From Variovorax sp. PBL-E5 (GTDB taxonomy: Bacteria > Pseudomonadota > Gammaproteobacteria > Burkholderiales > Burkholderiaceae_C): a DNA stretch of 64,000 bases. The position numbers and the translations under genes were made by a program. The notes under the pieces were generated by a model, which was given only the letters and a program-made list of their open reading frames with translations, was not told where the DNA came from and did not search any database. The stretch lies in contig NZ_LR594671.1 of assembly GCF_901827185.1 (NCBI RefSeq), positions 4,614,001 to 4,678,000 of the forward strand. The letters are read 5' to 3'. Position 1 is the first letter of the stretch; each line of letters opens with the position of its first letter. Below, one piece after another: positions 17,926 to 20,285 of the stretch.

Positions 17926-19311
17926 TCAGCGCAGGTCGGCGCCTTCTTCGCGGTCCAGCCGCACGAAGAAGGCCAGCGAGATCAGCGTGATCGCGCCGAC
18001 CACGACGAAGGCGGGCGAGAAATCGCGCGCCGCGAGGTGCGTCGAATCGGAGCCGTGCCACCAGGCCGCGGCACTCACCAGCGAGGCGCCGAGCACCACG
18101 CCCACGCTCAGCGACAGCTGCTGCGCCATGCTCGACAGCGCGGTCGCATGGCTCATCAACGGCTTCGGAATCTCCGAGAAGCCCAGCGTCTGCAGCGCCA
18201 CCATGCCCATCGAATTGAAGAGGCCGCCGAGCATCATGGTGCAGAACATCAGCAGGTGCGGCGTCGAAGGCCGGAAGAAGCCGTAGCTCGCATAGAACAG
18301 GCTGGTCAGCGCGGTGGCACCGATCAGCAGCGAGCGAAAGCCGATGAGCCGTATCGCGCGCGCCATGACGGTCCGTGTGGCCAGCGACCCGATGGCCGTG
18401 GCCACCGTCAGCAGGCCCGAATCCAGCGCCGACAGGCCGAAGCCCAGCTGCAGCATCAGCGGCAACAGGAAGGGCGAGGCGCCGATCGCGATGCGCAGCG
18501 GCGTGCCGCCGATGATCGAGGCGAAGTAGGTCGGATAGCGCAGCGTGCCGAGATCGATCAGCGGATTGGCCCGGCGGTGGCTGCGCAGGTGATACACGCA
18601 CAGCGCCAGCGCGCCCGCACCGGCCACGGTCCACGTCACCCACACCGCGACCAGCGACTTGCCCACCGTCTCCAGCCCGCCGAGCACGCCGGTCAATCCC
18701 AGCGCCAGCAGCACGAAGCCGGCGATGTCGAAGGGCTGCGGCGTCTCGTCCTCGCTCAGCTCGTCGATGAACAGCAGCGCCAGCACGATGCCGAGCAGCC
18801 CGAAAGGCACATTGACCAGGAAGATCCAGCGCCACGAGGTCCAGGTGACGATGGCGCCGCCGAACAGCGGTCCGACCATGCGGCCGATGGCCGGCGGCAC
18901 GGTGAACCAGATCATGGCCGCGACCATGCGCGAAGCCGGCACGCTGCGCAGCAGGATCAGCCGCCCCACCGGGACCATCAAGGCGCCGCCCATGCCCTGG
19001 ATGATGCGAAACAGCACCAGCGCGGGCAGCGACTGTGCGGCACCGCACAGCGCCGAGCCGATCGAGAAGAAGGCGATGGCGCAGCAGAAGACGCGCCGGG
19101 CACCGAATCGCTCCGCGAACCATCCGCTCGCCGGCAGGAAGACCGCCAGACTCAGCAGATAGGAGGTGATCGCGAGGTTGAGGTGCAGCGGCTGCACGTC
19201 GAGCGAGCGCGCGATGCTGGGCAGCGCGGTCGCCATGACCGAGGTGTCCAGGTTCTGCAGGAAGAGTGGACAGGCCACGATGATGGGAACGATCCGGTCG
19301 CGGGTGGCCAT
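17926..19311 (-). CDS. MFS exporter, EmrB/QacA (DHA2) subfamily
   Basis: 461 residues, strongly hydrophobic, about 14 helices. Helix 1 carries LFLQNLDTSVMATALPSIA; motif A-like GWFAERFGARRVFCC and motif C-like IGRMVGPLFGGAIV are present, and SWRWIFLVNVPFGLLGI is typical of DHA2 members. Related to but clearly distinct from the EmrB at 14631-16166. It has no adaptor or outer membrane partner of its own. It sits 120 bases downstream of the MarR operon promoter region in the same orientation but with its own start region at 19312-19400, so it is likely a separate transcript. Substrate unknown. Confidence 0.88.
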   Translation of the reverse strand: MATRDRIVPIIVACPLFLQNLDTSVMATALPSIARSLDVQPLHLNLAITSYLLSLAVFLPASGWFAERFGARRVFCCAIAFFSIGSALCGAAQSLPALVLFRIIQGMGGALMVPVGRLILLRSVPASRMVAAMIWFTVPPAIGRMVGPLFGGAIVTWTSWRWIFLVNVPFGLLGIVLALLFIDELSEDETPQPFDIAGFVLLALGLTGVLGGLETVGKSLVAVWVTWTVAGAGALALCVYHLRSHRRANPLIDLGTLRYPTYFASIIGGTPLRIAIGASPFLLPLMLQLGFGLSALDSGLLTVATAIGSLATRTVMARAIRLIGFRSLLIGATALTSLFYASYGFFRPSTPHLLMFCTMMLGGLFNSMGMVALQTLGFSEIPKPLMSHATALSSMAQQLSLSVGVVLGASLVSAAAWWHGSDSTHLAARDFSPAFVVVGAITLISLAFFVRLDREEGADLR

Positions 19312-19432
19312 GCGGGGATTCTAGGGACTCGCTCCTTCGGCCGTACGGCGGGGGCTGCGATGCCGAGTGCAGGGCTTGGTTGTAGGCTGCGGCCCACGCG
19401 CTCGCATTGACTTATCCGGCAAGGACGACGCA

Positions 19433-19523
19433 TGCAGGGTGCCTAAGCTGGGCACTTGCACGATTCCTCCTCCCGGCGTCATTCGGCGCCGTTGCACAGC
19501 GTCCTTCGGGGCGCTGTTTTTTT
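19433..19523 (+). ncRNA. candidate trans-acting small RNA with anti-Shine-Dalgarno motif
   Basis: In the gene-free stretch 19312-19541 the + strand can fold into three consecutive hairpins. Hairpin 1 (19433-19460) has a 10-bp stem including GGGTGCC with GGCACTT, one bulged A and the loop TAAGCTG. A single-stranded pyrimidine segment follows that contains CCTCCTCCC (19466-19474). Hairpin 2 is CGGCG/CGCCG (19474-19491). Hairpin 3 is a textbook intrinsic terminator (19496-19523). No coding frame accompanies it. The CCUCCUCCC motif is complementary to ribosome binding sites and is known from anti-SD (cuckoo) sRNAs of alphaproteobacteria. The 5' end and promoter are not defined: TTGACT at 19407 lacks a well-placed -10. 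Lies head-on to plsC. Confidence 0.55.
19496..19523 (+). terminator. intrinsic terminator with UUCG tetraloop
   Basis: ACAGCG-T-CC, loop TTCG, GG-G-CGCTGT: a 9-bp stem with one T-G wobble, capped by the very stable UUCG tetraloop and followed by TTTTTT. The T run is only on the + strand, so it terminates rightward transcription. No rightward gene lies upstream before base 13131, which points to a short non-coding transcript. Confidence 0.85.
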
Positions 19524-19541
19524 GGCGGGAGAAAGCCGGCC

Positions 19542-20285
19542 CTATTTCGTCTCGCGCCGCAGCACCTGCACGTCCTCGTGCAGCGTCTTTGCCCAGGCGC
19601 GGCGCTCGCGGCCCAGCGAGGGCTGCGGTTCGCCGAAGCGCACGATCGCGAGCAGCGGCGGCGCCTTCAGCGTGTTCCACAGCGAGCTGAAAAGATTGTC
19701 GTCGTCGATGTAGCGCGGCGCGTGGCTGGTCTCGCCGGTGGCCGCGTCCGCGAAGCGCAGCGCGGCCGGCTGCACCGGCGCGCCGGCCGAGATCGCGGCC
19801 TGCAGCAGGTTGGCATGGAAGGGCAGCAGGCCTTGGCCGTCGGTGGTCGTGCCCTCGGGAAACACGGCGATCAGGTCGCCGTTGCGCAGCGCCTCGGTCA
19901 TGTGATGGACCACGCGCATCGCGTCGCGGCGGCGTTCGCGCTCGATGTAGAGCGAGCCGGCGCCGGTGGACAAGGTGCCGATCAGCGGCCAGTGCCGCAC
20001 GCCCGCCTTGGAGACGAAGCGCACGTGGCGTGCCGCATGGATGGCGAGGATGTCGAGCCACGACAGGTGGTTGCACACCACCAGCACCGGCCCGCACTCG
20101 GGCGGCTCTCCCTGCACCGCGAGCCGAATGCCCATCAGGCCCAGCATGCGCTCTGCCCATTGCTGCACGCGCGCGTTCCGCTCGGCCGGCGTCAGGTGCG
20201 GAAACGTGAAGCGGATGGTCCACCAGCCGCCGAATGCATGCGCGATCGCGCGCAGCAGCTTCAGGCATGCGGACAAGGCCTGCAT
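19542..20285 (-). CDS. 1-acyl-sn-glycerol-3-phosphate acyltransferase (PlsC family)
   Basis: 247 residues. Membrane-associated acyltransferase with the HX4D catalytic motif in VCNHLSWLDILA, the substrate-binding block FVSKAGVRHWPLIG, and FPEGTTTDGQGL, in the order seen in PlsC. Transfers an acyl chain to lysophosphatidic acid or a related lysolipid at the inner membrane. ATG 20285 is 20 bases downstream of the pyrC' stop, so it is the last gene of the pyr run. Other PlsC paralogues (for example ornithine-lipid acyltransferase) share these motifs, so the exact substrate is open. Confidence 0.88.
   Translation of the reverse strand: MQALSACLKLLRAIAHAFGGWWTIRFTFPHLTPAERNARVQQWAERMLGLMGIRLAVQGEPPECGPVLVVCNHLSWLDILAIHAARHVRFVSKAGVRHWPLIGTLSTGAGSLYIERERRRDAMRVVHHMTEALRNGDLIAVFPEGTTTDGQGLLPFHANLLQAAISAGAPVQPAALRFADAATGETSHAPRYIDDDNLFSSLWNTLKAPPLLAIVRFGEPQPSLGRERRAWAKTLHEDVQVLRRETK

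Follow-up and report, generated by a model that had tools for sequence, protein, structure and literature searches.

The window analysed here, a stretch of 64,000 nt from the genome of Variovorax sp. PBL-E5, contains a + strand gap (19312-19541) that is flanked by an MFS transporter gene (17926-19311, - strand; PF07690) and by a plsC-type acyltransferase gene (19542-20285, - strand; PF01553), the latter being a recurrent convergent neighbour within the genus. Folding of the + strand from 19433 to 19530 gives three hairpins at -46.8 kcal/mol (z = -3.0, equalled by 0/200 shuffles), and a terminator scan of 19200-19700 returned a sole site, at 19496-19517 on the + strand, with a UUCG loop and a T run (chance expectation 0.5). 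The fold and the UUCG-capped terminator are both as described in the original prediction, which had proposed an sRNA with an exposed anti-Shine-Dalgarno (anti-SD) motif next to efflux and pyrimidine genes. A plsC-type gene gave a tblastn match in the fetched flank of 80/92 loci of the genus, always on the opposite strand, and, since the upstream neighbours vary as judged by eye while plsC recurs, a link to the efflux and pyrimidine genes looks uninformative and was dropped.

Architecture of the predicted RNA and its upstream region

The RNA would extend on the + strand from ~19457 to 19523, with a promoter of its own that follows a conserved element, and would consist of a free 5' end with UUCCUCCUC, a GC-rich hairpin and a U-tailed terminator hairpin. 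The anti-SD segment, UUCCUCCUCC (19464-19473), is defined by motif conservation and unpaired probability and has CCUCCUC as its conserved core. It is followed by hairpin A (19474-19491), which has 7 bp with a loop at 19481-19484 and is identified from covariation in the A3 and A4 alignments and from the alignment of the second model (both below), and by the terminator hairpin of 9 bp, which together with its UUCG loop and T run (19496-19523) would form the 3' end of the sRNA. The motif originally proposed, CCTCCTCCC, is present at 19466-19474. Its supposed single-strandedness stands for the first eight bases, as in the 67-nt form the unpaired probability is 0.84-1.0 for 19466-19473, but not for the final C of CCUCCUCCC, which is paired (0.06). 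Across 90 members, mean motif accessibility is 0.82.

The conserved upstream element (19381-19421, + strand) is a putative regulator-binding or promoter region. Its core, TGTAGG, is found in 91/92 parsed loci and opens a block of raised information of ~41 nt with the consensus TGTAGGCA-N3-GCCCACGC...TTGccTTcTCCcGCA; in the window the element reads TGTAGGC-N4-GCCCACGC...ATTGaCTTaTCCGGCA, comprising a dyad and a downstream box. Because GTAGGC-N4-GCCCAC within it is an imperfect dyad, the element may serve as a protein-binding site. TGTAGGC-N3-7-CCCACGC has a single occurrence in the PBL-E5 genome, and an element which is strongly kept in the genus, yet whose exact dyad is single in its own genome, has the appearance of a private regulatory site. 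A wider regulon was considered and rejected, since a search allowing two mismatches gave 113 places as against 119 for the reversed control, and therefore no signal.

A weak -10-like box lies ~20 nt after the element. This putative hexamer, TAAGCT (19444-19449, + strand), was assigned from its position and its partial conservation in the element-anchored alignment, and from it the start of transcription is predicted at ~19456-19457. A simple sigma-70 scan of the locus passed no -35/-10 pair, and a -35 is not recognisable. The first hairpin of the original prediction (19433-19460, + strand) folds as described but holds this -10-like hexamer, so it is probably not transcribed; it lies, moreover, beyond the conserved core and was rejected as part of the RNA.

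Conservation and covariation within Variovorax

BLAST of 19312-19545 against 61 relatives matched 18 genomes, all of them among the 37 of the same genus (own genome included). Barring the own genome and two matches involving the upstream element, the matches span positions 149-217 of the 234-nt query (~19460-19528), which places hairpin 1 outside the conserved core. Two covariance models were built, the first from A3, a MAFFT alignment of 15 members that was not fitted to the model, and the second from A4, a model-fitted alignment of 49 members. A covariance model of 19464-19523 gives one match of at least 48 bits in each of 93/101 Variovorax genomes. With the second model 95 of the 101 match at E 0.001 or better, six have nothing at the cut-off and another two match only weakly, and some genomes carry extra weak matches of 30-42 bits. 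The hairpin-motif-hairpin-terminator order first envisaged was recovered in relatives as regards the motif, hairpin A and the terminator, but not as regards hairpin 1 or the exact CCUCCUCCC. Within the window, 19464-19523 scores 76.4 bits with a model partly built from the same locus, and the sole further match has 10.4 bits.

Beyond the genus, the first model, run with stricter filters on 399 genomes drawn from the family, gave no match above 48 bits; the top score outside Variovorax, 47.2 bits, belongs to another class of locus. A DNA pattern of the core, which required the motif, was found in 47 stretches of the named genome collection, 45 of them from Variovorax, one from Xenophilus sp. 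L33 and one from 'Burkholderiales bacterium 8X'. Plasmid copies of the RNA were looked for and none were found.

The pairing itself is maintained across the members. In A3 (15 sequences) 97.9% of cells pair and both-side changes are seen in 6/16 pairs, and in A4 (49 sequences) the corresponding values are 97.0% and 12/16. Structures slid along A4 give 29.5-64.8% paired cells, and the covariation score of A4 is 0.355, compared with 0.031-0.099 for the slid structures, although further pair types are not clearly above shuffles (57/500 for A3 and 30/500 for A4). The locus is very probably a real, conserved gene for a regulatory RNA of ~67 nt, and its assignment as an anti-SD sRNA gene, judged from sequence, has good support from conservation and covariation.

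CCTCCTC is found in 91/93 genus loci (90/92 parsed loci and the unparsed G507, as printed), the exceptions being G274 with CCTCTTC and G014 with TACTCCTCC. It is preceded by UU (TT in the DNA) in 83/92 loci, and the ~20 bases ahead of it carry almost no information in the alignment. The bases that follow it vary, the forms being CCTCCTCAC (42 loci), CCTCCTCCC (32), CCTCCTCGC (12) and CCTCCTCCG (4), and the motif conserved genus-wide is CCUCCUC and not the full CCUCCUCCC. The exact CCUCCUCCC was rejected as a functional seed because only 32/92 loci have it and because, of the 31 places in the own genome with its perfect 9-mer complement, GGGAGGAGG, only 9 are followed at 3-13 nt by a start codon that opens at least 60 codons. 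In the same genome CCTCCTCCC is rarer than its reversal (32 vs 73).

A small open reading frame before the RNA

A hydrophobic smORF of 25 aa lies directly before the RNA in 49/93 genomes (48/92 parsed loci, and G507 by eye). The motif in these loci is 80-142 nt past the smORF start, a typical peptide is MKSIILWLCGVPLIVIIGLKVFGIL, and one member compared with Pfam and NCBIfam gave no match. The smORF is absent from 44/93 genomes, that of the window included, and in the smORF-less loci CCTCCTC is kept in 44/44 and TGTAGG in 43/44. Retention of the motif in all 44 points to the RNA, rather than the peptide, as the constant product of the locus, and the RNA probably has its origin in the 3' end of an mRNA for a small protein.

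A rapidly built tree of 78 plsC stretches from downstream of the RNA (smORF present in 42 and absent in 36; 22/75 inner branches starred) shows 11 changes of the smORF state, at least seven of them forced by starred branches, whereas shuffles average 26; on its own the tree cannot distinguish gain of the smORF from loss. Remnants resembling the start or end of the smORF were found, in sensible positions, in 7/44 smORF-less loci (G021, G496, G019, G513, G489, G011 and G470), a result equalled by 0/100 shuffles in a search of 88 comparisons in which chance alone should give one or two passes. Three further loci (G511, G006 and G465) passed the rule for listing remnants and look spurious. The remnants favour repeated loss, and the sequences suggest that the smORF disappeared on several occasions from loci that kept the RNA. 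Related 25-aa smORFs (for example MKSIILWLCGVPIGVIILLKVFGVF) also occur elsewhere, at L066-L072, with no RNA within 150 nt downstream; the tiny-peptide family extends beyond the RNA locus.

What makes the locus most interesting is its evolutionary context, in which the peptide partner was apparently lost several times over. A wider account, to which we would give slightly less than even odds, is that a locus for a small protein and an anti-SD RNA is common to the genus, that peptide and RNA were partners at the outset, and that the peptide was repeatedly discarded (7 to 11 changes), with the RNA and the upstream element being kept, such that a 3' UTR would have become a free-standing sRNA gene. 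This would be parallel to, but independent of, the CcaF1-CcsR loci of alphaproteobacteria, in which a small protein is likewise combined with an anti-SD RNA (excerpts of PMC10253847). If true, repeated peptide loss would amount to a replicated natural series of the transition from 3' UTR to free-standing sRNA gene. With congeners that have the peptide and congeners that lack it, the selected part of a small-protein/sRNA locus can be tested for directly.

Known families, mode of action and rival readings

Rfam 15 applied to the whole window at curated thresholds returned only a distant tRNA. At the locus, with E up to 10, the rows were Atu_C8 (17.8 bits, cut-off 50) and CcsR1 (RF02791; 12.6 bits, cut-off 65.3), with no row for the RF02344 ar14 model. 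The RF02278 model (Betaproteobacteria toxic small RNA; gathering score 50 bits) gave no match in 19200-19700 at E up to 10, nor in 14 relatives at E up to 1, and the weak Rfam rows in relatives were all under cut-off (ncS54 with 24.0 and 21.9 bits against 43, Atu_C8 with 25.4 against 50, and others). Nevertheless, the plan of RF02278, namely two hairpins of which the second is the terminator and an unpaired 5' CUCCUCC, is also that of the locus when members are compared by eye, and the RF02278 members fetched carry CUCCUCC at the 5' end. According to the available portions of PMC5688073 and PMC11722255, the RF02278 and S17 RNAs resemble the Variovorax RNA in being short and in having two hairpins and an unpaired CU-rich stretch. 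The Variovorax RNA differs from RF02278 in its sequence and hairpin A, in having one CU-rich site and none in a loop, and in its 25-aa smORF, which is unrelated.

Three of the four Burkholderia RNAs NcS03, NcS05, NcS27 and NcS62 are 57-67 nt in length, and NcS27, of 92 nt, is processed to a shorter form; over-expression of NcS27 retards growth, and its CU-rich region acts inversely in reverse-complement form (PMC5688073, in excerpt). S17S, belonging to S17 of Bordetella pertussis, arises by processing of a longer transcript in which there is a putative ORF of 32 residues, and directly represses a BP2158 reporter (PMC11722255, in excerpt). For RF02278 RNAs and S17 together, the experiments reported in the accessible parts of PMC5688073, PMC11722255 and PMC10987360 support action through the CU-rich region or repression of a target. 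Two separate RF02278-like copies are present in the own genome, at C1:1070762-1070824 (64.2 bits) and C1:1795926-1795984 (44.2 bits, under cut-off); with the second model the latter reaches 36.9 bits and the 64.2-bit copy goes unreported, and of 19 RF02278 loci given to this model three had their RNA reported (17.6-22.6 bits). A remote kinship with RF02278 is plausible. The sibling RNAs NmsR/RcoF of Neisseria have two unpaired CU-rich stretches complementary to ribosome regions (PMC5688073, in excerpt), a likeness as regards the unpaired CU-rich stretch, but they form a tandem pair, whereas the Variovorax locus is single, has one motif and gives no model match.

The best reading of these comparisons is that the RNA represents a new family of the known double-hairpin anti-SD sRNA kind (RF02278, NcS27, S17). 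The suggestion that such a design might be undescribed in betaproteobacteria therefore holds for this locus, which has no Rfam 15 family, but not for the kind, which is already known from RF02278 with NcS27 and from S17 (excerpts of PMC5688073 and PMC11722255). Among the literature matches listed for Variovorax sRNAs, from a collection without most subscription papers, none describes the RNA, and titles and abstracts retrieved for CCUCCUCCC contain nothing on betaproteobacteria. Variovorax would gain a well-conserved anti-SD RNA family that is absent from Rfam 15, and one linked to known Burkholderia and Bordetella RNAs that hold growth back or repress genes.

The main reading, to which we assign a probability of roughly 0.78, is that of a standalone anti-SD sRNA of ~67 nt, with its own promoter, which acts by occlusion of ribosome sites and was formerly the 3' part of a smORF transcript. 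The exposed CCUCCUC would pair with purine-rich SD sequences (GAGGAGG/GGAGGA) of several mRNAs and block ribosome binding, as with the Bordetella and Burkholderia double-hairpin RNAs, for which this mode of action has been shown with one target or has been proposed, and the U tail may recruit an RNA chaperone such as Hfq. The ancestral transcript would have encoded the 25-aa hydrophobic peptide with the RNA as its 3' part, the peptide gene later being lost. Hfq-dependent trans-acting sRNAs in general are short RNAs that have a promoter of their own, a terminator ending in U residues and a conserved unpaired seed; of these the sequence shows the terminator and the seed, with an upstream element as a putative promoter region, and the transcript and its binding to Hfq are predictions. 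In the own genome, which thus has ribosome sites of this kind, GAGGAGG-N3-9-ATG occurs at 101 places and the reversed pattern at 20. A short anti-SD motif has little target specificity. The full GAGGAGGAA site occurs four times among the matches listed (100 of the 101 places), before a MarR-type regulator, a CoA transferase, a CTP_transf_like gene and L287 (a 6-codon frame only), and these candidate targets were given no weight.

It is unlikely that the locus is only the terminator of an ancestral small-protein mRNA, whether a relic or an insulator between convergent genes, with a C-rich stretch lacking any function in trans. The RNA does end in a strong terminator, aimed at the end of plsC in 80/92 loci, and in 49/93 it comes after the smORF and probably forms the 3' end of that transcript; however, a terminator needs neither a near-invariant CCUCCUC nor a second, covarying hairpin, and RNA and motif persist in the 44/93 genomes that lack the smORF, of which 43 also retain the element core. 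Those same 44 genomes are left unexplained by regulation in cis, which has a low probability and in which the 3' UTR motif would pair with the ribosome site of the smORF (GGAGA) on the same mRNA and limit its translation. Mean pairing probability between the motif and this region exceeds 0.3 in 11/46 loci, a count made with no control, but over all 46 it is just 0.15.

Kinship with the alphaproteobacterial cuckoo RNAs (ar14/NfeR1 and CcsR1-4), as first suggested, was not borne out, and true membership of that family now appears scarcely credible. The CCUCCUCCC anti-SD motif is shared with ar14 (excerpts of PMC10746234), its letters being identical in 32/92 loci, and the CcsR genes share a transcript with the gene of a small protein, in an arrangement resembling the one described here (CcaF1-CcsR; excerpts of PMC10253847). 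Nevertheless, that protein is a 71-aa DUF1127 protein and not a 25-aa hydrophobic peptide. The cuckoo plan has several hairpins each exposing CCUCCUCCC, as in the three of ar14 RNAs (PMC10746234, in excerpt), whereas the Variovorax RNA has a single 5' motif outside the loops. The cuckoo RNAs also belong to another class of bacteria, their Rfam models do not match the locus, CcsR1 being far under its cut-off and ar14 giving no row, and strong matches to the Variovorax RNA were found in the Variovorax group alone, with alphaproteobacteria covered by the pattern scan only.

The RF02278-like double hairpin at C1:1795926-1795984 of the own genome (L231) is directly 3' of a phasin-like gene (by our own reading), which suggests another 3' UTR-derived member in that genome. 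Among the outside-genus loci L084-L108 (L106 left out), CCCTCCTC precedes the hairpin pair in L098 (34.7 bits), and eight form an flhC-motA class, the remainder being, by eye, ordinary terminators or stem pairs. These eight (L084, L085, L087, L088, L089, L090, L091 and L097) come from eight genomes in other genera of the family and lie at ~1400-1560 on the sRNA strand. Rfam applied to six of them gave none at cut-off (L085: Bp1_781, 24.8 bits against 80). They have, in this order, an flhC-like gene (PF05280, checked in L084 only), a sigma-28-like stretch (CTCAAGT or TCAAGT ... CGAT), TCTCCTCC, a hairpin and a terminator, with an ORF that we read as motA-like downstream in the four loci checked, and are candidates for a flagellar anti-SD sRNA.
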